A stretch of DNA of 64,000 nt, taken from assembly GCF_001651805.1 (NCBI RefSeq), contig NZ_CP015839.1, positions 4,278,001-4,342,000 of the forward strand, given 5' to 3'. Both the position numbers and the translations under genes were made by a program. The notes beneath the pieces are model-generated. The model had not been told where the DNA came from and made no database searches. It saw only the letters and a program-made list of their open reading frames with translations. Every line of letters begins with the position of its first letter. The first letter of the stretch is position 1. Below, piece after piece: positions 10,944-27,280 of this stretch. Source of the DNA: Marinobacterium aestuarii (lineage in GTDB: Bacteria; Pseudomonadota; Gammaproteobacteria; Pseudomonadales; Balneatricaceae).

Positions 10944-11315
10944 ATGACCCTTGTGCTGGTGGTCGATGATGAACCCAACATAGTGCTGTCGCTGGAGTTT
11001 TTGATGCAGCAGGCCGGCTTCGAGGTGATCACCGCCAATGACGGTGAAACGGCGCTGCTGCGGGTTGCCGAGCAAAGGCCCGACCTGATTCTGCTGGATA
11101 TCAGCCTGCCCGGCCTCAGCGGCTTTGAAGTGCTCGAGCAGCTGCGAGCTCAGCCCGAACATGCCCGCCTGCCGATTATCATGCTCACCGCCCACGGCCG
11201 CGAGGTCGAGCGCGAGAAAGGCCTGGCACTGGGTGCCGACGACTATATCACCAAGCCCTTTTCAACCCGCCTGCTGGTGGAAAAGGTTCAGGCGCTGCTG
11301 ACGGAAGGCAACTGA
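10944..11315 (+). CDS. Single-domain response regulator (receiver only)
   Basis: 123 residues, a complete CheY-like receiver and nothing else. It has the acidic pair in VVDDEPN (residues 8-9), phospho-acceptor D52 in [10 protein letters not shown], the switch T in MLTAHG and the conserved Lys in YITKPFS. With no output domain it must act by protein-protein contact or phosphotransfer. It is the first gene of a tight set with the pseudo-kinase/exonuclease (1 bp apart), a small membrane protein and the symporter-histidine kinase. The simplest inference is that the symporter-kinase phosphorylates it and that it acts on the exonuclease protein. The start is supported by AGGAGGCGCTT directly upstream. 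Confidence 0.9.
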
Positions 11316-11316
11316 A

Positions 11317-13356
11317 GTGCCTTCGTTCCAGTCTCTGCTGGGTCGCTGGCTTCTGCTCAGTGGCACCTCCCTTTTCAGCGGTATCTTTCTGGGCCTCTGG
11401 CTCGACAGCACGCTGCAACCGGCTGGAGCTCAACGCGCCGGGCTCTGGCTGCTGGCACTGCTGCCAGGGGCACTGATACTGCTGCTAGGTGCGGCACTGG
11501 AGCGCCGTCTGCTAACGCCGCTGCGCCATCTGCAGGTACAGCTGGCCCGGCTGGCCGCCAACCCCGATGCCACCCGTGATTTTGCCCCCGAAGGCTGGCT
11601 GCGCCCGCTGACAGCGGACTTCGAACGCCTGCGCGACGGCTGGCGCGAAGATCGCCAGGCGCTACACAACGCTGCGGAACAGGGCGCCCACAAGGCCCTG
11701 CAGATTCGCCACGAACTGGAAGCCGTGCTGCAGGTGCTGCACACCCCGCTGCTCTTGTGCGATCAGCACCAGCGCCTGCTGCTGTTTAACCCGGCCGCAG
11801 AGCAACTCTTTGCCCAGTCGCCCGCCCTGGGCCTCGGACGACGCCTGTCCGAGCTGCTGCCGCTGCCCGGCCTGCAGGATGCCTTGCAAGACCTGCCCCG
11901 CGACGGCCGCGCTCGTCAGCTGCTGCTGCCCTGGGGTCAACACTGGCTGCGCTGTGATCTGCGCCGTGTCGCCGCCAACCAGGGCGAGGCGCTGATCACG
12001 TTGCAGGACAGCACAGCGCAGCAGGCGGCGGATCAGCGCTGGCACGCCCCGCTGGCACACCTGCTGCCGGATCTGCGACGGCGCAGCGCCAGCCTTGTCA
12101 GCAGCAGCGAAGTGCTGGCCAGCGGCCAGGCCACCCCCGAGCTGCAGGGCCGGCTCGAGACCATTGTGCGCGAGGAAAGCCAGGCCCTGGGCGCGCTGGT
12201 AGACCAGCTGGCCCGGCACTTCGACAGCCTGCAACAGGACCCGGGCCTGCTGCAGGACACCTGGTCCAACGATCTCTGGAGCGCGCTGAGTGAACGCCTG
12301 CAGCGCCAGCAGCTTGAACTCCTGGCCATTGGCATTCCCGCCTGGCTCAGGAGCGATGGGCCCGCCCTGCTTGAACTGCTGTGTCGACTGTTAGGTCAGC
12401 TGCATGAAGCCACCGGCGAGCGCCGCTTCGAGGCCGAGCTGCGCCTGGGCAATCAGCGCGTTTATCTGGATCTTATCTGGCCCGGCCAGCCGATTGATCA
12501 GGGCCGCATCGCCCGCTGGCTGCAGCAACCGCTGACCGATGCCAGTGCCTTTCCCTGCCTGCTGGATGTACTGCGCCGCCACGACAGCGACTGCTGGTCC
12601 CTGGCCGACGAGGATGGCCTGCATGCCCGACTGCGGCTGCCACTGCCCGCGCTGGAGCGGGTCGGCGCACCGCCCAAGGCGCGCCAGACAAGACCCGAAT
12701 TTCACGATTTCAGTATTGCCGACCTGCCGCCACCGGATGCAGAACTCGGCGCCAGGCCGCTGGGACAACTGGAGATGGTGGTGTTCGACACCGAAACCAC
12801 CGGGCTGGAGCTGCGCCAGGGCGATACCCTGGTGAGCATAGGTGCCTGTCGCATTATCAATGGCCGGCTGCTGGCGCAGGAGGCCTACGATCAGCTCATC
12901 AACCCAGGCCGCCCCATGCCGCCCCAGAGCACACAGATCCACGGCCTTGGCGATAGCGACGTGGCCGAGGCGCCGCCCGCCGCGGTAGTGCTGCCACAGT
13001 TTCGCGACTTCGTCGGCCACGCCGTGCTGGTGGCCCACAATGCGGCCTTCGACCTGCTGGCCATCAACCTGCATGCACAAACCGCCGGTGTCAGCTTTGA
13101 GATGCCGGTGCTGGATACGCTGCTGCTGTCCCGTGCCCTGGACCCGACCCTGGAGGGCCACGGTCTGGATGCCCTGGCCGAGCGCTTTCAGCTCAGTTTT
13201 GCCCCCGGCACCCGCCACTCGGCGCTGGGTGATGCCAGGGTGACCGCCGAGCTGCTGTTGCAGCTGCTGCCACGTTTGCAGGCACGCGGCGTGCACAGTC
13301 TGGAGCAGGCGCTGCAGTTCCAGGCCAGCGGCCAACGCGGGAGAACAGCCCCATGA
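11317..13356 (+). CDS. Membrane PAS / degenerate histidine-kinase protein fused to DEDDh exonuclease
   Basis: 679 residues. Order of parts: two membrane helices (about 7-29 and 41-62), a HAMP-like linker, a PAS-like domain (about 131-235), and a stretch resembling a dimerisation helix pair and ATPase domain (about 243-445). The phospho-accepting His, the N-box and the glycine-rich boxes are missing from that stretch. Last comes a DNA polymerase III epsilon-type exonuclease domain (about 485-665) with all five DEDDh residues visible: D491 and E493 (VFDTETTG), D579 (HNAAFD), H634 and D639 (RHSALGDA). It therefore looks like a sensor scaffold attached to an active 3'-5' exonuclease (RNA or DNA). 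GTG start one base after the receiver gene, 4-bp overlap with the next gene. Exonuclease genes near symporter-kinases are known in pseudomonads; the kinase-like middle is my reading. Confidence 0.8.
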   Translation: MPSFQSLLGRWLLLSGTSLFSGIFLGLWLDSTLQPAGAQRAGLWLLALLPGALILLLGAALERRLLTPLRHLQVQLARLAANPDATRDFAPEGWLRPLTADFERLRDGWREDRQALHNAAEQGAHKALQIRHELEAVLQVLHTPLLLCDQHQRLLLFNPAAEQLFAQSPALGLGRRLSELLPLPGLQDALQDLPRDGRARQLLLPWGQHWLRCDLRRVAANQGEALITLQDSTAQQAADQRWHAPLAHLLPDLRRRSASLVSSSEVLASGQATPELQGRLETIVREESQALGALVDQLARHFDSLQQDPGLLQDTWSNDLWSALSERLQRQQLELLAIGIPAWLRSDGPALLELLCRLLGQLHEATGERRFEAELRLGNQRVYLDLIWPGQPIDQGRIARWLQQPLTDASAFPCLLDVLRRHDSDCWSLADEDGLHARLRLPLPALERVGAPPKARQTRPEFHDFSIADLPPPDAELGARPLGQLEMVVFDTETTGLELRQGDTLVSIGACRIINGRLLAQEAYDQLINPGRPMPPQSTQIHGLGDSDVAEAPPAAVVLPQFRDFVGHAVLVAHNAAFDLLAINLHAQTAGVSFEMPVLDTLLLSRALDPTLEGHGLDALAERFQLSFAPGTRHSALGDARVTAELLLQLLPRLQARGVHSLEQALQFQASGQRGRTAP

Positions 13357-13553
13357 TGCGCCCCTCTCCCCTGCCACCGCGCCTGATCGCCGTTACCCTG
13401 CTGGCCGCACTGCTGTTCACGCCCCCGCTGCTGGGGCTGTTTGATCAAGCCGGCGACAGCGGCCTGTCGTGGCTGCCGCTGTACCTGTTCGGGGCCTGGG
13501 CCTTTGTTATTCTGCTCGCGGCGCTGACGCTGGAGCTCAGCGATGACGATTAA
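13353..13553 (+). CDS. Small two-helix membrane protein
   Basis: 66 residues with two hydrophobic segments (about 11-28 and 40-60) and a short acidic tail (LELSDDD). The start overlaps the stop of the exonuclease gene (ATGA), so it is translationally coupled to it. It has no domain I recognise beyond the general form of small membrane proteins next to sodium/solute symporters (as with YjcH beside ActP). A helper of the symporter-kinase encoded 79 bp downstream is the likeliest role (inference). Confidence 0.65.
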   Translation: MMRPSPLPPRLIAVTLLAALLFTPPLLGLFDQAGDSGLSWLPLYLFGAWAFVILLAALTLELSDDD

Positions 13554-13631
13554 AACCGCCGCGCTTTTGATCGGCTGGCCCACGCGCGGCGAACACCGTC
13601 GGCCGGCGTGCCACAGCCGCGGGGCCCACCG

Positions 13632-16412
13632 ATGAAGTCCGAATGGGTGCTGCTGTCCGTGGCTTTTGGCTACCTGGGGCTGCTGTTCGTAATTGCCGCC
13701 TGGGCGGACAGGCGCGCCGGGGCCGGGCGTTCGGTTATTGGCTCACCGCTGGTGTATACGCTGTCGATCGCGGTGTACTGCACCGCCTGGACCTTCTACG
13801 GCAGTGTCGGGCGCGCCGCCCAGTACGGGCCGGCCTTTCTCACCATCTACCTGGGACCGACCCTGGTGATGCTGCTGGGCTGGCTGCTGATCAGGCGCAT
13901 GGTGCGTATCGCCCGCGCCCAGCGCATTAGCTCCATTGCCGACTTTATCAGCGCCCGCTACGGCAAGAGCGGCTGGCTCGGCGCCCTGGTGACACTGATC
14001 GCCGTGATCGGCATCATGCCCTATATCGCGCTGCAGCTTAAAGCCATCACCTACAGCTACGCGGTGCTGACACAGTTTCCCGCCTCGCCGGTGTTGCACT
14101 TGGCCGAAGCCCCCTTTTGGACCGACAAGTCGCTCTGGGTCGCGCTGGTGCTGTCGGTATTCATTATCCTGTTTGGCACCCGCCAGCTGGACGCCAGCGA
14201 GCGCCACGAGGGCATGGTGGCCGCCATCGCCTTCGAGTCCGTGATCAAGCTGCTGGCCTTCTGTGCCGTCGGCCTCTTTGTGGTGTTCTGGCTGTTTGAT
14301 GGCCCCGGCCATATGCTGCAGCGCGCCGCACAGGTGCCGGGGCTGGCGGACAATTTCGGGCTGGAGGCGGTTCCCGGCGGCAGCATTGGCTGGGTCAGCA
14401 CCCTGGTGCTGGCAGCGCTGGCCTTTTTAACGCTGCCGCGCCAGTTTCAGGTGCTGGTGGTGGAAAATGTAGATGAGCGCCATATCAGGCGCGCCAGCTG
14501 GCTGTTTCCGCTCTATCTGCTGGCCATCAACCTGTTCGTGCTGCCGATTGCCCTGGCGGGCACCCTGTTGGGTGACAGCGCCCAGACCCCGGACAGCTTC
14601 GTGCTCACGGTCGGGCTTGTCGGCGGCTCCAGCTGGCTGCCGGCACTGGCCTTTATCGGTGGTCTTTCCGCCGCCACCGGCATGATGATTGTCGAGACCA
14701 TAGCGCTCTCGACCATGGTCAGCAACCACCTGATCATGCCGCTCCTGCTACACCTGCGCCGTCTGCAGATCGAAAACTACCAGGATTTCAGCGGCACCCT
14801 GCTGGGCATCAGGCGCATCGCCATAGTGCTGATTTTATTGCTGGGCTACCTCTACCACGCCCTGATTGGTGAATCCTACAGCCTGGTGACCATAGGTCTG
14901 GTGTCCTTCACCGCCGCGGCCCAGTTTGCCCCTGCGCTGCTGATCGGCCTCTACTGGCGCGGCGCCGCACGCCTGGGGGCCGCCGCCGGCATGTTGGGGG
15001 GCTTTGTCGTCTGGTTGCATACCCTGCTGCTGCCGGGCTTTGCCCAATCCGGCTGGCTCGATGCCAGCCTGCTGAGCGACGGCCCCTGGGGCATTCACTG
15101 GCTGCGGCCCTATGCCCTCTTCGGTCTCGACGGCTGGGATATCTACAGCCACGGGCTTTTCTGGAGCCTGCTGGTGAATATAGGCCTGCTGGTGCTGGTG
15201 TCGCTGTTCTGCCGCCAGAGCCGGCTGGAGCAGACCCAGGCGGCACTCTTTACCGGCGCGCTGCACGATGGCCTGATCCAGACCCCGCTCTGGCTGGGCC
15301 AGACCAGCCGCGGCGAGCTGCGCCGATTGCTGCACCGCTACCTGGGCGCCGGCGCAACTGCGCGTGTACTGCAAAGTGCGCCGGGCCCGGCAGAGACGTC
15401 GGCCACTAACCCGGCGGACGACGCCACGCCGGCATCACCCCAGTTGATCAGCCAGGCCGAACACGCCCTGGCAGGCGCCCTGGGGGGCGCTTCTGCCCGC
15501 ATTCTGATCAACTCGGTGGTGCGCGGCGAAGCCCTGGATCTGGAAGCGGTGCTCAGCCTGCTGGACACCACATCCCAGGCGCTGGAGTACAACCGCCGGC
15601 TGGAGCAGAAATCCACCGAGCTGGTGGCCATTGGCGAACAGCTGCGCCACGCCAACGAGCAACTGCGCGAGCTGGATCGCCTCAAAGACGAGTTCGTCGC
15701 CATGGTGAGTCATGAACTGCGCACGCCCCTGACCTCGATCCGGGCCTTCGCCGAAATCCTGCGCGACACGCCAGACATGGACAGCGACAAGCGCAGTCAT
15801 TTTCTTTCCATAGTGGTGCGCGAAAGCGAGCGGCTGTCGCGCCTGATCGAGGAAATTCTCGATCTGGCGCGCCTCGAATCCGGCCGCATGACGCTAAAAC
15901 CCCAGCGGCTGGATCTCACCCGCCTGGCACGCCAGTCGGCCGAAGCCGTCAGTCATCTGTGCAGCGAGCGGGGCCTGAAGCTGGAGCTGGAGCTGCCCGA
16001 AGACAGCGCAGCCGTCACCGCCGATCCCGACCGGCTGCAGCAGGTCATCATCAACCTGCTGGATAACGCCAGCAAGTTCGCCGCCCCTGAGGCGGGCCAG
16101 GCACGGCTTTGTCTGGAGCCGTTCAAGGATCACTGGCGCCTGTCGGTGGAGGACAACGGCGAGGGTATTGCCGAGTCGGAACGCGAGCGGGTGTTCGAGA
16201 AATTTCACCAGCTGGAAAACAACGGTCAGGATGCCAGTGGCCGCCCCCGGGGCACGGGCCTGGGCCTGCCCATCAGCCGTGGCATTATCGCCCACCTGGG
16301 CGGACGCCTGTGGATAGAATCGGGCAGCACCCTCACAGGCGCCCGCTTCGTGATCGAGCTGCCCCGGGCGCCGGAGCAGAATAACGGCAACGAGTGGCTC
16401 ACCGCGAGCTAA
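13632..16412 (+). CDS. Sodium/solute symporter-histidine kinase hybrid (CrbS/MxtR-like)
   Basis: 926 residues. The first ~530 form a sodium:solute symporter (SSS) domain with about 13 membrane helices. A cytoplasmic linker with a coiled coil (about 655-685) follows, then a HisKA domain with H694 in the H-box MVSHELRTPL, and a HATPase domain with NLLDNASKF, VEDNGEGI and GTGLGLPIS. There is no C-terminal receiver domain. CrbS/MxtR-type proteins sense or transport acetate-like substrates and control acetyl-CoA synthetase and related genes through a partner regulator. Here the only adjacent regulator is the single receiver at 10944. The ATG at 13632 gives the symporter N-terminus (MKSEWVLLS), and the frame upstream is not conserved-looking. 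All kinase residues are intact. Confidence 0.88.
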   Translation: MKSEWVLLSVAFGYLGLLFVIAAWADRRAGAGRSVIGSPLVYTLSIAVYCTAWTFYGSVGRAAQYGPAFLTIYLGPTLVMLLGWLLIRRMVRIARAQRISSIADFISARYGKSGWLGALVTLIAVIGIMPYIALQLKAITYSYAVLTQFPASPVLHLAEAPFWTDKSLWVALVLSVFIILFGTRQLDASERHEGMVAAIAFESVIKLLAFCAVGLFVVFWLFDGPGHMLQRAAQVPGLADNFGLEAVPGGSIGWVSTLVLAALAFLTLPRQFQVLVVENVDERHIRRASWLFPLYLLAINLFVLPIALAGTLLGDSAQTPDSFVLTVGLVGGSSWLPALAFIGGLSAATGMMIVETIALSTMVSNHLIMPLLLHLRRLQIENYQDFSGTLLGIRRIAIVLILLLGYLYHALIGESYSLVTIGLVSFTAAAQFAPALLIGLYWRGAARLGAAAGMLGGFVVWLHTLLLPGFAQSGWLDASLLSDGPWGIHWLRPYALFGLDGWDIYSHGLFWSLLVNIGLLVLVSLFCRQSRLEQTQAALFTGALHDGLIQTPLWLGQTSRGELRRLLHRYLGAGATARVLQSAPGPAETSATNPADDATPASPQLISQAEHALAGALGGASARILINSVVRGEALDLEAVLSLLDTTSQALEYNRRLEQKSTELVAIGEQLRHANEQLRELDRLKDEFVAMVSHELRTPLTSIRAFAEILRDTPDMDSDKRSHFLSIVVRESERLSRLIEEILDLARLESGRMTLKPQRLDLTRLARQSAEAVSHLCSERGLKLELELPEDSAAVTADPDRLQQVIINLLDNASKFAAPEAGQARLCLEPFKDHWRLSVEDNGEGIAESERERVFEKFHQLENNGQDASGRPRGTGLGLPISRGIIAHLGGRLWIESGSTLTGARFVIELPRAPEQNNGNEWLTAS

Positions 16413-16427
16413 TTGCAGGCTCAGCCC

Positions 16428-16669
16428 CAGCAGCCTGTCGGACACTGGACTGGTGCGGAGCACGTGCTTTTGTAGGGTGCCTGTGGGGTGTCCGTAGGGT
16501 GCTGATGAGCGCAGCGAATCGCACCGTTTACCACAGCGAATTGTTCCGGGCGGCGCTCCGTCGTGCGGCGTGCCGACAGACGAGGTGCGAGGTGCGAGGT
16601 GCGAGGTGCGAGGTGCGAGATTAAAGGGGCAAGGTGAAAGGTGAAAGGGGCAAGTTAAAGCCGACAGGC
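16428..16669. repeat. MITE-type ends bounding a patchwork of short repeats
   Basis: CAGCAGCCTGTCGGAC (16428-16443) matches the left end of the 31128-31296 element, and GTTAAAGCCGACAGGC (16654-16669) resembles its right end. Between them are a REP-like palindromic stretch (GGGTGCTGATGAGCGCAGCG and GCACC, about 16496-16526) and a tandem heptamer. The left end follows the kinase stop codon by 15 bp and could also form a hairpin with CAGGCT just before it. The 16413-17062 gap holds no convincing gene. Confidence 0.5.
16581..16619. repeat. Tandem heptamer repeat (CGAGGTG)n
   Basis: Five exact head-to-tail copies of CGAGGTG (16581-16615) and a partial sixth are followed by purine-rich degenerate units (GGGGCAAGGTGAAAGGTGAAAG). 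A similar purine-rich AAGCTGAAAGGGACAAGTG text occurs at 33360-33410. It is non-coding and is a site likely to vary in copy number between strains. Confidence 0.85.
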
Positions 16670-16679
16670 GGGCACCCTG

Positions 16680-16708
16680 CCCGTAGGAGCGGCACCCCGC
16701 TGCGAAGC
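16680..16708. repeat. REP-like sequence (GTAGGAGCGGC type)
   Basis: CCGTAGGAGCGGCACCCCGC followed by TGCGAAGC resembles the Pseudomonas REP family (GTAGGAGCGGC...GCCGCGAA type), with partly pairing arms. Only one copy was recognised in the window. IS110-family elements are known to insert in REP sequences, and the IS110 transposase gene ends about 350 bp away. Confidence 0.4.
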
Positions 16709-17062
16709 TTTTGGGACGATGGCTGGGTTCTCCGGGGCAGCAACCATTTGCCTCGGGGCATTCGTCGCGGGGCGCGCCTTCTCTAAAGCGGCATCCCAAG
16801 TCAACCACCAAATTGGTTGTCCTCGGTAGGACTGCCACTGAGTTTCAGGCTTCTCTACGGGGTCGCTCAAGGCGCCGACAGGATGTAATCGGAGCACGCA
16901 GCCTGTCATCTCCTCCTACACGGGGTCTTGTGAGCCTTTCGGCACTCTCGCCCCAAGTCGCGCTCGTGGTCTGCGTGACCGAACTCAGTTGCAGGTTTCA
17001 ACCTCTCTGTATTCTGTTCTCCGAGCTGCAGGTATGCTGCCTCTCTGGTAGACACCGGGCTA

Positions 17063-18076
17063 TCATGCCGCCTGGGGGAAGGCCTCGAAGTCCTTCTCCT
17101 CTTTCCACAGCCGCCAGAGCAGAACCGCCAGTTTTCGTGCCACGGCCACCTTGGCTTTGGCGCTGCCCTTGCGACGCTGCAGCTGCAAGCCCCATTGTTT
17201 CAGGGCGCAGTCTCTGCCCTTCGTGAGCAGAACGTGCGCACATTCCACCAGGTGCCAGCGCAGCAAGTGATCTCCCTCCCGGGTAATCCGCCCGCGATAG
17301 GCCGTATCACCCGACTGGGAGACGCGCGGTGCCAGTCCCAGATAGTCAGCCACCTCTTCTGCGTGCCGGAACCGGTGCGGATCATCCAGCGTCGCCCGGT
17401 ACAGCACGCTGGTCAGCGGGCCCACCCCGTACACCTGTTCGAATCGCCGGGTCACCTGATCAGTTCGACTGCGCTGGCGGATGTGCTTCTCGAGCCGTGC
17501 CGCCTCTACTCGCGCCAACGCCCAGACCTGCAGCATACCGGCAAAGGCGTCGCTCAAGCCGGGTATCTCCCTGTTAACGAGGGTCATGACCGTATCCTCA
17601 AACTGGCCGTTGCTGACCTTGCCCAGGCGGAGCCCCTGGGCACGCAACAGACCGCGGATGCTGTTGAGCTGGGCCTTGCTGGTCTTCTGCAAAGCCTGAC
17701 GCGCTTTCAACAAGCTACGCAGCTCCCGGGCTTCCGGGCTTTTGCGGTGGACTTCGATGTACCAGCCACAGCGGCCGATCTCCGCCAGGGTATGGGCATC
17801 CCGCGGGTCGGTTTTCTTCTTCGCATTCATCAAGTTTTTCGCAGCGCGGGCGTCGATGATCACCGGCTCGTGACCCAGTGTCTCGACATAGTTCGCCACC
17901 ATCTCGGCCAATGGGCTGGCTTCGATAATGACCCTTAACGGGCCCACCCCCTCAAAGGCTCTGCGAAACCCTACTAAATCCGTCTCGACAGTTACGCGAC
18001 GCAACGCCAGAGCGGAACTATCCAGGATGACGACAGCACTTTCTCTACTCGCCAGATCAATGCCACAATAGTTCAT
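17063..18076 (-). mobile_element. IS110-family transposase (intact)
   Basis: 337 residues with an N-terminal RuvC-like DEDD domain (D7 in CGIDLAS, E52 in VIIEAS, D90 and D93 in KTDPRDAH) and a C-terminal Transposase_20 domain. The latter has GVGPLTS and the motif APRVSQSGDTAYRGRITREG, whose SG serine (S255) sits where the catalytic serine is expected. No frameshift or stop, so it may be active. IS110 recombinases use a bridge RNA encoded in the non-coding ends of the element and leave no clear terminal inverted repeats or target duplications. I therefore give only the gene limits; the element must extend into the flanks on one or both sides (about 16.9 kb and about 18.2 kb). It separates the symporter-kinase gene from the convergent DUF294 gene. 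Confidence 0.9.
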
Positions 18077-18196
18077 GTCAGCCCCTCCTGTTTTTGGTTT
18101 AAGGCGCGTTCAGCGACCTTGTGTGCTTAGACACTCAACCAGCTGGAGGGGCTGATCCTGACGTGGCTGGACCACGCACCCGCCGCTTTATTGCAT
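18077..18196 (-). ncRNA. Candidate IS110 left-end region, possible bridge RNA
   Basis: The 120 bp upstream of the transposase start carries an 11-bp perfect inverted repeat (TCAGCCCCTCC at 18078-18088, GGAGGGGCTGA at 18145-18155) and other small dyads, so a transcript would be structured. In the IS110 subgroup the bridge RNA is encoded upstream of the transposase; in the IS1111 subgroup it lies downstream. Which subgroup this element belongs to could not be settled, so this is only a candidate. The alternative region is about 16.88-17.06 kb. Confidence 0.3.
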
Positions 18197-18236
18197 CTCC
18201 TACGGGTTAGATTGGGCTCCTACGGGTTAGATTGGG
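18197..18236. repeat. Two exact tandem copies of a 20-bp unit at the IS110 flank
   Basis: CTCCTACGGGTTAGATTGGG occurs twice head to tail (18197-18216 and 18217-18236) and is followed by CTCT. It lies between the transposase upstream region and the end of the DUF294 gene. It may mark the element boundary: one copy from the element end or circle junction, the other from the target. The other flank has a related CTCCTACACGGGG at about 16912-16924. Confidence 0.8.
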
Positions 18237-18263
18237 CTCTGTAGCTTGCCCTTTGGGATTTTG

Positions 18264-19394
18264 CTAAATCGCGGCAACAGCTTGGCGCTGAAAATCTCTA
18301 ATGGCTTGCAAACTCTGGCGCAGCCGGCTGCAATCTGCCTCATTCAAGCGCCCCTGGTCGATCCAGGCATCCGGCGCCCGCCCGGCCGCCACCGCCTCCA
18401 GCTGTGCCCGCAACAGCAGCGCCTGCAGCTGGTTCAGCGCCTCGACCAGGCGCTGCGCCTGCGCCAAATCCAGTACGCCGGCTTCGGCCAGTGCCCTGAG
18501 CCTTGAGCGCGTATCCACCGCAGCGATGCCATGCAACAGCACCAGCAAGCGGGCCGCCCCCTGCAGCACCAGCAACCCCTGCGCCTTGAGGTTCAGTGCA
18601 CGAGCATGGGGCGCATCCCTGCCATCACCGTGCAGCCGGTCAAATCGATCCAGCGCCACCGGTGTTTCATCCAGCAGCGTCGCCATTTCGTGCAGAAAGA
18701 GCCCGGCTCGGGGCATCAGCGCCAGCGCCTGGCTGCGCAGGCCGCTCGCCAGCGCGGCATCACCGTACACAGGGGCAAAATCCAGCAGGATATTGGACAG
18801 TTGCACCAGCTTGACGACCCGGCGGCCCGTCCAGAGCTGCAGTTGCTGCTGCCACTCGTGGCTGCGCTTGCGCCACGACGGCCAGCGCGCCATCACATTG
18901 CCGTTGCACAGCGGGATGCCGTATTCATGCAAGCGGGCCGTAAAACGCTCGCCAAGGGACTGAAACCAGGTGTCGATGGCCGTATGACGCGCATCCGGAT
19001 AATCCTCGATGATCATGGCGTTGTCCTGATCCGGCCCCAGCAGGCTTTCATGCCGCGCCCCTGAGCCCAGGCACAGCACACAGAAACCGCAGGGCGGTGC
19101 GCCCCAGCCCTGCTGCGCCATTTCCGCCAGCGCATCCCCTATGGCGCGCCTGTAGAGCCAGTCGTTGTGATCACTGAGCAGCTGGCTGATACGCCAGGGA
19201 GGCAGATCGAGCTGCAGCAGTGCCCGGGCAAGGCGCGGCTGCCAGGCCTTGGTCTGTGCCGGCGCAGGGTCCGTACCCAGCGCAGCAAACGCCTGTTGCA
19301 GCGGCAGCAGCACCCCGGGCCAGGCGCGGCTATCGGGCCAGGTATCGGTTGCGAAGAGCTCGCGCCAGGCTGACGCATTCGGATTATCGGGCAT
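18264..19394 (-). CDS. DUF294 putative nucleotidyltransferase
   Basis: 376 residues. The nucleotidyltransferase motif CLGSGARHESLLGPDQDNAMI (GSxxRxE...DxD, as in GlnD) lies about a third of the way in, followed by the DUF294 substrate-binding C-terminal region (helical, RLRALAEAGVLD onward). An N-terminal helical part replaces the CBS domains seen in longer relatives. DUF294 proteins are frequent neighbours of symporter-kinases and epsilon-like exonucleases in pseudomonads and vibrios, so it belongs with 10944-16412 although it is convergent and now separated by the IS110. Predicted cytoplasmic, transferring a nucleotide to an unknown protein or small molecule. The ATG at 19394 is preceded by GGAG; TTG and GTG codons upstream are alternatives. 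Confidence 0.8.
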   Translation of the reverse strand: MPDNPNASAWRELFATDTWPDSRAWPGVLLPLQQAFAALGTDPAPAQTKAWQPRLARALLQLDLPPWRISQLLSDHNDWLYRRAIGDALAEMAQQGWGAPPCGFCVLCLGSGARHESLLGPDQDNAMIIEDYPDARHTAIDTWFQSLGERFTARLHEYGIPLCNGNVMARWPSWRKRSHEWQQQLQLWTGRRVVKLVQLSNILLDFAPVYGDAALASGLRSQALALMPRAGLFLHEMATLLDETPVALDRFDRLHGDGRDAPHARALNLKAQGLLVLQGAARLLVLLHGIAAVDTRSRLRALAEAGVLDLAQAQRLVEALNQLQALLLRAQLEAVAAGRAPDAWIDQGRLNEADCSRLRQSLQAIRDFQRQAVAAI

Positions 19395-25204: not shown

Positions 25205-26628
25205 CAGGTAGCCCTCCGGCGGTGAAAGCGCACCGTGACCACCAGGCCCGCGGGCTCATTGTCGCTCAGTTTAAGCGAGGCGCGATGGTAACTGGCCACC
25301 TCCTTGGCAATGGCAAGCCCAAGGCCTGAGCCGGTGCGGCTGTTGCCGGGGCTGCGGTAAAAGCGCTCGAACACCAGCGGCTTTTCCGCATCCGGGATAC
25401 CGGGGCCCTTATCCGCCACCGCCAGGCTGATAGAGCGCTCATCCTGCTGCAACTGCACCCGCACCTCGCTGCCCGGATTACTGTAGCGAATGGCATTTTC
25501 GAGGATATTTTGCACCATCTGGCGCAGTGCAAAGGCATTGCCCTGCAGCTGCACGCTGGCATCACCCTCATACCCCAGCTCCACACCCTGCTCCAGCGTT
25601 GGCAACGCCAGCTCGCGACAAAGATCGCGTACCAGCGAATCCAGTGCCACAGATTCCGCCGGCTGACTGCGCAGGCGATGAGCCAGTACCGCCTGGCTGA
25701 GCAGCTGGTTCACCGTATCGCTGAGGCGGTCGGCCGACTCCAGTACCCGGCCCAGTTGTTGCTGGCGCAGGGTTGTGTCTTCTTCGTCCAGCGCGTTCTG
25801 CGCCTGGGAACGCAAGCCTGCCAGGGGCGTGCGAATCTGATGCGCCGCCTCGCTGGTAAAGCGCTGCAGCCCATTAAGGGTGCCGCCCAGCTGCTGCATG
25901 AAATGATTGATGGTGTGTACCAGTTTCGAGATCTCCCGTGGCACCGCCATATCCAGCGGACTCAGGTCCACGGAGGAGCGCCGGGCCAGGGCACGGTCGA
26001 GCTGATCCAGCGGCCGCAGCGTCATCCAGATGCCTAAGGAAACCAGCAGCAGGGCAACGCCAAACAGCAGCCCGATCAGCTGCAGCGCCCGCAGGCTGAT
26101 TTCGTCAGCCAGACTCGTGCGCGCTAGCCTGGTCTGACCGATCTGGATGCGAATATAGCCGCTAAAATCTGTTTCGGTCAGCAGCCGCTCCAGCAGCACA
26201 AAACGCACCGCTTCACCCCGGTAATCGGCATCGAAAAACTGCTTCCTGAAGGCATCACCAGCATGGCTGTCTGCGGTCTGCCCAATGGGCGGCGCCGGCA
26301 AGTCGTCATAACCGGTAATGTGCGCATCCCCCGGCCCCATGATGCGGTAATAGACACGGTCGTCCGGCGCCAGCGCCAGGGTTTCAAAGGCGGCGCGGGG
26401 CAGGTCTGCCACCACCCGGCCCTGGCGCAGTGAAATCTGTTCGGCAATCTGCAGCGCGGCACCGGTGAGCAGGCGGTCGTAGGACAGTTGCGCCGAGCGC
26501 TGGGCATAGCTCTGGGCGGCGCGCACGCCGAGCAGCGACACAGCAATCAGCAGCAGGCTGGTCATGCACAGCAACCGGCGCCGGATCGACCAGCGCCCGA
26601 CATCAGGCAGGCGTATTTTCGACCACAT
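25204..26628 (-). CDS. Sensor histidine kinase, TctE-like
   Basis: 474 residues: membrane helix about 18-36, a periplasmic 2CSK_N-type sensor domain, a second helix (LIGLLFGVALLLVSLGIWM), HAMP region, then the H-box SEAAHQIRTPLAGLRSQ and an ATPase with NILENAIRYS, ADKGPGIP and GSGLGLAI. All motifs are intact. The ATG at 26628 lies inside the end of the regulator gene (26-bp overlap), the usual arrangement for TctD/TctE pairs, and gives the expected membrane-start MWSKIRLP. TctE-type kinases respond to di- and tricarboxylates and control TctCBA transporters; a tct operon lies 1.5 kb beyond. Confidence 0.88.
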   Translation of the reverse strand: MWSKIRLPDVGRWSIRRRLLCMTSLLLIAVSLLGVRAAQSYAQRSAQLSYDRLLTGAALQIAEQISLRQGRVVADLPRAAFETLALAPDDRVYYRIMGPGDAHITGYDDLPAPPIGQTADSHAGDAFRKQFFDADYRGEAVRFVLLERLLTETDFSGYIRIQIGQTRLARTSLADEISLRALQLIGLLFGVALLLVSLGIWMTLRPLDQLDRALARRSSVDLSPLDMAVPREISKLVHTINHFMQQLGGTLNGLQRFTSEAAHQIRTPLAGLRSQAQNALDEEDTTLRQQQLGRVLESADRLSDTVNQLLSQAVLAHRLRSQPAESVALDSLVRDLCRELALPTLEQGVELGYEGDASVQLQGNAFALRQMVQNILENAIRYSNPGSEVRVQLQQDERSISLAVADKGPGIPDAEKPLVFERFYRSPGNSRTGSGLGLAIAKEVASYHRASLKLSDNEPAGLVVTVRFHRRRAT

Positions 26629-27274
26629 AGCCCAGGCCTCTGAGGGTGCGTATCTGCACTGAACTGTGCGGCAGCTTCTTGCGCAGGCGCGCCACATAGA
26701 GCTCGATGGCATTGGCGCCCGGCGTTTCATCGAAGTTATACAGATGATCCAGCAGCTCTTCTTTGCTCAGTACCCGGCCAGTGCGGCTCATGAAAATTTC
26801 CAGCAGGCGAAACTCGCGTTGCTTCAGCTCTACCGCAGCGCCCGCAACGGTAACAGTGCAGGCGTGGCGGTCGAGCTCGGTATTGCCGATGCAAAGCCGG
26901 TCCTGCGCCTGGCCCTGACTGCGCCGCAACAGGGCGCGGCTGCGCGCTTCGAGCTCACCGAAATCAAACGGCTTGCTGAGATAGTCATCCGCCCCCAGAT
27001 CCAGCAGGCTGATGCGGTCTTCTATCTGGCCACGGGCGGTCAACACCAGCACCGGTGTGGTGCTGCCACGCTGGCGCAGCTGCGCCAGTACCTGCTCCCC
27101 TCCAAGCCCCGGCAGGTTCAGGTCCAGAATAATCAGATCAAACGCCTGATGCCTGAGGATGCTGTCCGCCTGGCGGCCGTCGGGCGCCACATCGGCGGCG
27201 TGGCCCTGCTTGAGCAGGCGCCGGCCTATGGCTTCGGCCAGGGTCAGATCATCTTCTACGATCAGAATTCGCAT
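26603..27274 (-). CDS. OmpR-family response regulator, TctD-like
   Basis: 223 residues. Receiver with D51 (LIILDLNLPG), acidic pocket in VEDD and K in SKPFDFGEL, then a winged-helix output domain ending RTLRGLGYVVENTPA. DNA-binding partner of the kinase encoded just downstream. The first gene of the leftward unit regulator > kinase > binding protein, starting 6 bp from the end of the LysR gene, which reads in the same direction. Confidence 0.92.
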   Translation of the reverse strand: MRILIVEDDLTLAEAIGRRLLKQGHAADVAPDGRQADSILRHQAFDLIILDLNLPGLGGEQVLAQLRQRGSTTPVLVLTARGQIEDRISLLDLGADDYLSKPFDFGELEARSRALLRRSQGQAQDRLCIGNTELDRHACTVTVAGAAVELKQREFRLLEIFMSRTGRVLSKEELLDHLYNFDETPGANAIELYVARLRKKLPHSSVQIRTLRGLGYVVENTPA

Positions 27275-27280
27275 GCTGCC

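Follow-up and report, generated by a model that had tools for sequence, protein, structure and literature searches.

A conserved receiver and pseudokinase-exonuclease gene pair beside a symporter-like histidine kinase in Marinobacterium aestuarii

Two-component systems end mostly in transcription factors. A locus of Marinobacterium aestuarii raises the question of whether such a system might end in an enzyme instead. The locus lies at positions 10944 to 19394 of a 64,000-nucleotide stretch of DNA, here called the window (contig NZ_CP015839.1 of assembly GCF_001651805.1, positions 4,278,001 to 4,342,000 of the forward strand), in a genome of 5.19 Mb. The original prediction, made from the window's sequence alone, was that five genes act there as one working unit, and all five are present: a receiver (REC), a pseudokinase-exonuclease (EXO), a small membrane protein (SMP), a symporter-kinase (SSK) and a nucleotidyltransferase (DUF294). 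We found that EXO has the DHp-CA fold of a histidine kinase without its phospho-acceptor histidine, and is a pseudokinase fused to an exonuclease, and that the module genes keep company beyond chance. Their window coordinates are as follows.

10944-11315, plus strand: REC, stand-alone receiver of 123 amino acids (Pfam Response_reg, E 2.2e-31)
11317-13356, plus strand: EXO, PAS / pseudo-histidine-kinase / exonuclease protein of 679 amino acids (Pfam RNase_T, E 4e-28; PAS_4, E 3.7e-6)
11737-12012, plus strand: PAS domain of EXO, residues about 141-232 (PAS_4 at residues 143-235; AlphaFold2 model)
12034-12657, plus strand: pseudo-histidine-kinase of EXO, DHp at about 240-306 and CA at about 310-447 (profile and fold matches)
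12772-13320, plus strand: DEDDh exonuclease domain of EXO, residues about 486-668 (active-site residues and fold matches)
13353-13553, plus strand: SMP, 66-amino-acid protein with two hydrophobic stretches seen by eye (15 members aligned)
13632-16412, plus strand: SSK, SLC5 symporter-like domain, STAC-like linker, HisKA and HATPase_c (Pfam HisKA, E 1.1e-21; HATPase_c, E 1.3e-25)
18264-19394, minus strand: DUF294 plus DUF294_C nucleotidyltransferase (Pfam DUF294, E 1.5e-34; DUF294_C, E 1.1e-28)

REC, EXO, SMP and SSK follow one another on the plus strand. As predicted, a lone receiver gene stands 1 bp from the exonuclease gene, the single base separating the REC stop codon from the GTG start of EXO. 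The 5' end of SMP overlaps the 3' end of EXO by 4 bases, and SMP and SSK are spaced by 78 bases if SSK starts at ATG 13632, which the length of its relatives makes the likelier start within the open reading frame 13608-16412. The expectation of a compact five-gene locus held for these four contiguous genes and failed for DUF294, which is convergent on the minus strand, outside the operon, and parted from SSK by 1.85 kb that include an IS110-type transposase gene.

Domain structure of EXO and its partners

Two N-terminal hydrophobic helices, judged by eye to be a membrane anchor, are followed in EXO by a HAMP-like helix, the PAS domain, the DHp-like and CA-like parts and the DEDDh exonuclease. 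The pseudokinase nature expected of this protein was upheld by profile, fold and residues alike. Searched against the PDB, the EXO profile matched a VicK-like kinase (4i5s) over residues 88-446 (E 2.6e-12) and PolC/DnaQ over residues 486-658. AlphaFold2 modelled the whole protein with a mean predicted local distance difference test score (pLDDT) of 78.7 and a predicted template modelling score (pTM) of 0.38, and residues 92-470 with values of 86.8 and 0.53. The CA-like part of the model aligned with PrrB (Z 14.4, root-mean-square deviation (rmsd) 2.9, 129 aligned), and the model also matched DivL (4q20; Z 12.6, rmsd 14.5, 189 aligned). Several longer matches, DivL included, have a large rmsd, which is to be expected where domains are set differently.

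Residues were compared in 70 EXO sequences, from which that of locus L058 was left out as too short and to which the window protein was added; this set and those of REC, SSK and DUF294 were chosen by profile, so that conservation is partly built in. Histidine occurs in none of the 70 at position 251, the phospho-acceptor site (4 gaps), and at position 388 tryptophan replaces the G1 aspartate of the ATP site in 65 (3 gaps). The exonuclease residues Asp491, Glu493, Asp579, His634 and Asp639 are present in 70 of 70. This domain aligned with Pol III epsilon (2gui; Z 21.6, rmsd 1.9, 167 aligned) and PolC (9qpc; Z 25.4, rmsd 1.9, 194 aligned), and among the best 50 matches listed the Z scores against DEDDh folds ranged from 17 to 25. 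EXO is thus like the DEDDh exonucleases (DnaQ/Pol III epsilon, PolC, ExoX, RNase T, TREX) in having all five active-site residues, and differs from them in the membrane anchor and PAS-pseudokinase set in front; by these residues it is predicted to be active as a 3'-5' exonuclease. Its closest named match, in a list that may lack the records nearest to that genome itself, comes from Marinobacterium profundum (93%).

REC retains the phospho-receiver residues in all 58 aligned sequences: Asp52, Lys104, and threonine or serine at position 82 (58/58 each). In SSK the kinase residues His702, N box, G1 and G2 are invariant (50/50). Pfam found neither a PAS domain nor a receiver in SSK, only HisKA, HATPase_c and a weak second HATPase model, in agreement with the predicted symporter-linked kinase lacking a fused receiver. 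Searching the genome gave the SSF domain 24.8 bits, above its cut-off; hmmscan of the protein did not return this domain. Residues 7-686 are 46% identical to a CrbS-like protein of the same genome, a similarity that suggests the STAC linker. Elsewhere in this genome (locus L097, G000:C1 1606001-1615000) we observed a 735-amino-acid protein that resembles SSK over its residues 9-652 only and has no Pfam family at E 0.001; its remaining sequence is too short for a kinase part.

The 15 aligned SMP members are 29-89% identical to the window protein, for which Pfam gave no family; scattered weak matches appeared in 1 or 2 of the 15. The GS...DxD...D motif of DUF294 is present in 52 of 52 sequences. 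The window copy resembles DUF294 nucleotidyltransferases in having both Pfam domains and the DxD...D motif. No CBS part was recognised in it by Pfam, in contrast to the cNMP-CBS-DUF294 protein encoded at the CrbS-like locus described below, and a PDB profile search returned no match at E 0.01.

Conservation of the gene set

Of 60 family genomes, 19 gave a full-length EXO match; identity was at least 56% in 16 of these, counting that of the window, and 35-37% in the other 3. The same 19 genomes had a full-length SSK match (cut-off 1e-90), close to EXO on one contig in all 19, and the other 41 had neither. In a phylum sample of 398 genomes, EXO profile matches (E up to 1e-50) occurred in 52, some of them covering mainly the exonuclease part, and SSK matches (E up to 1e-150) in 83, of which 62 extended past residue 900. 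Full-length SSK was present in 42 of the 52 EXO genomes versus 20 of the 346 others, with neither in 326; the Fisher p of 7e-32 is too small, given the kinship of the genomes. EXO and SSK stood apart in 18 of the 42, at 31 kb to 1.5 Mb on one contig in 4 and on different contigs in 14; for draft assemblies, some with EXO near a contig end, different contigs do not prove distance. Of 14 genomes checked in which the EXO stretch lacked SSK or REC, 11 carry full-length SSK (in G370 inside the fetched stretch).

Gene neighbourhoods were compared in 70 loci, each of them chosen by an EXO match. An EXO search returned 38 loci, of which the 28 matching beyond the exonuclease domain were kept (L034-L061) and 10 dropped (L062-L071); the 28 come from Marinobacterium, Nitrincola, Marinospirillum, Halomonas, Bisbaumannia and metagenome-assembled genomes, including one of Nitrospirota. 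Genome searches added 42: 3 distant family loci (L094-L096), 19 of 20 stretches for 25 match rows (L108, of 3.2 kb, was dropped), and 20 stretches from 20 of the 52 phylum EXO genomes, picked for variety. Three genomes contribute two loci each, and locus counts are minima, since the stretch is often cut short by the end of its contig. In 57 of the 70 loci REC is the gene immediately 5' of EXO, so the predicted co-occurrence of receiver and exonuclease extends to other genomes; in two of the 57 the EXO frame is irregular, broken in L058 and over-extended in L189, where it begins before REC. SSK was found in 49, DUF294 in 52 and ActP in 21. The prediction of one working unit is supported by this neighbourhood together with the genome-wide co-occurrence.

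Gene order varies between REC-EXO-SMP-SSK and SMP-SSK-REC-EXO, with DUF294 on either strand; where REC is present it is always 5' of EXO. In Paracoccus denitrificans PD1222, plasmid 1 carries DUF294-SMP-SSK-REC-EXO in one strand run with overlapping ends, under locus tags PDEN_RS25395 to PDEN_RS25415. The annotation gives, in order, nucleotidyltransferase-type, 81-amino-acid, 901-amino-acid ATP-binding, response regulator and exonuclease-domain proteins, which the module profiles name as DUF294 with a CBS-type part, SMP, SSK, REC and EXO. In this SSK Pfam found HisKA and HATPase_c, an SSF that stayed below cut-off, and neither PAS nor receiver. The order in Cupriavidus necator C39 is SMP-SSK-REC-EXO-DUF294, preceded by pieces of ActP. 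Five loci read ActP-DUF294-REC-EXO in a stretch without SSK, and the stretch of Ruegeria TM1040 contains DUF4212, a symporter gene, DUF294, a gene for a hypothetical protein and a short EXO, with neither REC nor SSK. In L190 a 1043-amino-acid kinase-receiver gene directly follows EXO; the symporter profile was not found in it.

In the window, a branched-chain amino acid transport operon lies upstream of the module and a 1-Cys peroxiredoxin gene downstream. The branched-chain transport genes adjoin the module in just 4 other mapped loci (L034, L035, L037 and L038). One further feature stands between SSK and DUF294.

17063-18076, minus strand: IS110-type transposase gene

A single copy of it was found in the genome and the close relative L034 has none between SSK and DUF294; we therefore rejected it as a component of the system. 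Short tandem GAGGTGC-like repeats were seen in the same gap, at 16585-16620 in the window and at about 15150-15450 in L034, where the stretch is longer. A scan of the regions in front of REC and DUF294 for an inverted repeat of the CrbR type was dropped as uninformative: the motif was a guess from a primer listed in PMC5715377, control promoters matched it only with three mismatches, and matches with three or fewer occur 41 times in the window.

Relation to CrbS-type circuits

The window's genome also holds a CrbS-type locus, named by its gene content, at G000:C1 941-958 kb. It encodes a 1313-amino-acid kinase with PAS domains, HisKA, HATPase_c and a receiver, and around it a receiver-GerE (CrbR-like) regulator, ActP, a cNMP-CBS-DUF294 protein and a 209-amino-acid exonuclease of the RNase_T family. 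The original prediction that SSK has no LuxR-type partner nearby was borne out, as the CrbR profile found only REC and a receiver at 26606-27280 in the window. As far as sequence can show, a LuxR-type partner elsewhere that would account for SSK was not found either; the CrbR-like gene adjoins the separate hybrid kinase.

The EXO nuclease domain and the 209-amino-acid exonuclease are 27% identical, and the idea that the latter is a stripped EXO was not supported at that identity. In genome G052 (L096) an SSK-REC-EXO block sits between CBS-DUF294 and fliE/fliF, the slot that the 209-amino-acid exonuclease occupies in the window's genome. With so low an identity, the two exonucleases may be different genes of one circuit.

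CrbS/CrbR (MxtR/ErdR) is one of the nearest known systems, its receptor kinase being of the SLC5-STAC type that SSK seems to share. The published regulon, as described in PMC5715377 and PMC9927547, shares with the module ActP, a small membrane protein, a CBS-nucleotidyltransferase and, in Pseudomonas putida, an exonuclease. That exonuclease, pp_0353, is reported to form one operon with the CBS protein gene pp_0354; both are reported MxtR/ErdR targets, and pp_0353 is required for normal growth on pyruvate (PMC9927547). The authors speculate on mRNA degradation and call the precise role of pp_0353 in pyruvate utilization unclear (PMC9927547). CrbS and RpuS are hybrid kinases with PAS and REC domains, according to PMC7918813 and PMC9100948. 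SSK has neither domain and no adjoining LuxR-type gene, and the module exonuclease forms one protein with a membrane PAS-pseudokinase, mostly with a receiver gene in front. RpuS/RpuR of Sinorhizobium fredii likewise has an SLC5-STAC kinase, in a pyruvate circuit, and a DUF3311 small protein in its gene map (PMC9100948); it differs in its hybrid kinase and LuxR partner, and the word 'exonuclease' is absent from the text of PMC9100948 searched.

The original prediction took the biochemical link between such kinases and the neighbouring exonuclease and DUF294 proteins to be undescribed. The theme is partly in print: the exonuclease and CBS protein are already published as MxtR/ErdR targets, and the CBS-nucleotidyltransferase protein as a CrbS/R target. 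No receiver paired with a PAS-pseudokinase-exonuclease was found in the open literature searched, where differently worded papers could escape; among 20 listed of 74 matching papers, judged by title and the opening of the abstract, none was recognised as treating such a fusion. No paper treating DUF294 together with an exonuclease was found there, and PMC5436829 contains none of six terms for nucleases or gene neighbourhood.

A candidate signalling route and its alternatives

SSK looks like an active kinase and carries no receiver, REC has no output domain, and EXO is an enzyme with a kinase-like docking fold; this makes SSK to REC to EXO the most economical route. We propose that the module is a two-component-type signalling system for a small nutrient that ends in an enzyme rather than a transcription factor, a proposal to which we give an even chance. 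SSK, as a transporter-like receptor kinase, would sense or move the solute, probably with the help of SMP, and would pass phosphate to the stand-alone REC. Phosphorylated REC may then bind the putatively membrane-anchored pseudokinase of EXO, as phosphorylated DivK binds DivL, and this docking would switch or place the predicted 3'-5' exonuclease. DUF294 might serve this pathway as well, perhaps by adding nucleotides at the place where EXO takes them off. Acetate, pyruvate or another monocarboxylate is the likeliest solute, as suggested by the presence of ActP in 21 of the 70 loci and by the need for pp_0353 in normal growth on pyruvate.

In Caulobacter, DivL acts on another kinase; EXO differs from it in bearing its own nuclease domain. 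DivL is a pseudo-histidine-kinase that binds a phosphorylated single-domain receiver (PMC4211667); EXO is alike in its pseudo-histidine-kinase and may bind REC in the same manner.

Several observations weigh against the proposed route. When covariation between REC and the EXO DHp was ranked, the top 0.5% held 2 of the 736 pairs at the kinase-regulator interface, which is no enrichment (57 pairs, effective number of sequences 34). Between REC and SSK one DHp block ranked first of 126, with 1 of 736 interface pairs and again no enrichment, and the intended control, REC against DUF294, behaved like the SSK case (one block first of 47); the sequence numbers are far too few for either outcome. The gene maps showed no fusion of REC with EXO, and no biochemistry on the module was found. 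Ten of the 52 EXO genomes have no full-length SSK match; several of these are incomplete assemblies, and in one, G500, the SSK match is confined to residues 7-546. Conversely, SSK occurs without an EXO match in 20 genomes of the phylum sample. Thirteen of the 70 loci show no REC upstream of EXO: L129 and L142 (EXO at the contig start), L131, L136, L137, L138, L140, L172 and L184-L188. The last five, alphaproteobacterial, have ActP, DUF294, a protein of 169-176 amino acids between DUF294 and EXO, and an EXO of 465-667 amino acids, with no receiver detected. LuxR-type matches occur in 6 of the 70 stretches. In L142 and L172, both among the loci without upstream REC, the match lies close to EXO on the opposite strand; in L050, L060, L185 and L187 it is at least 6 kb away. 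These six, two of them near EXO, make a transcriptional branch possible in some genomes, and in none does the match fall between REC, EXO and SSK.

A phosphorelay from SSK and REC to some other output is unlikely, though it merits serious thought. The output would be a transcription factor elsewhere, or REC would be a phosphate sink or shuttle, with EXO co-transcribed for a related task and not controlled by REC. REC is a receiver of CheY size and capable of shuttling, the genome holds the CrbR-like regulator and many kinases, and the missing REC-EXO covariation and the 13 loci without a detected upstream REC fit this account. It sits poorly with the placement of REC next to EXO, not SSK, in REC-EXO-SMP-SSK loci, with its persistence beside EXO in the five ActP-DUF294-REC-EXO loci, and with an EXO that keeps a kinase-like fold without the catalytic residues.

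We are more doubtful still of an extended form of the route, in which the phosphorelay would end in reversible addition and removal of nucleotides on a shared target, SSK and REC switching a membrane-held EXO that trims nucleotides or RNA tails added by DUF294. If true, the module would be a switch made of a nucleotidyltransferase and an exonuclease, controlled by transporter occupancy and spread through Pseudomonadota.

It is improbable that EXO is itself the sensor, its PAS and pseudokinase binding a ligand or nucleotide and, with REC, tuning SSK in feedback, while the exonuclease makes or removes a signal nucleotide. Nothing observed points to information flowing from EXO to SSK, and the G1 aspartate of the nucleotide site is the tryptophan noted above in 65 of 70 sequences, although EXO has a PAS domain where SSK has none, and hydrophobic helices begin both proteins (by eye; those of EXO also in the model).

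Least probable, in our judgement decidedly so, is a diverged CrbS/RpuS system that in reality acts on transcription, by way of a LuxR-type regulator and through cross-talk with the CrbR-like protein: the symporter and linker part common to SSK and the CrbS-like protein (46%), the shared gene themes (ActP, DUF294, exonuclease) and the LuxR-type matches near EXO in L142 and L172 speak for it, but SSK is without the PAS and REC of CrbS and RpuS, LuxR-type matches occur in only 6 of the 70 stretches and never between REC, EXO and SSK, and the CrbS-like kinase of this genome is a separate protein whose gene has a LuxR-type neighbour itself.

For the route from SSK through REC to EXO, P. denitrificans PD1222, with its five adjacent genes, makes the module testable. 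A widespread two-component system, given EXO-profile matches in 52 of the 398 phylum genomes, that seemingly ends in a membrane-anchored nuclease by way of a pseudokinase would be a new output, and the module could help explain the exonuclease and DUF294 genes that lie beside acetate and pyruvate symporters.

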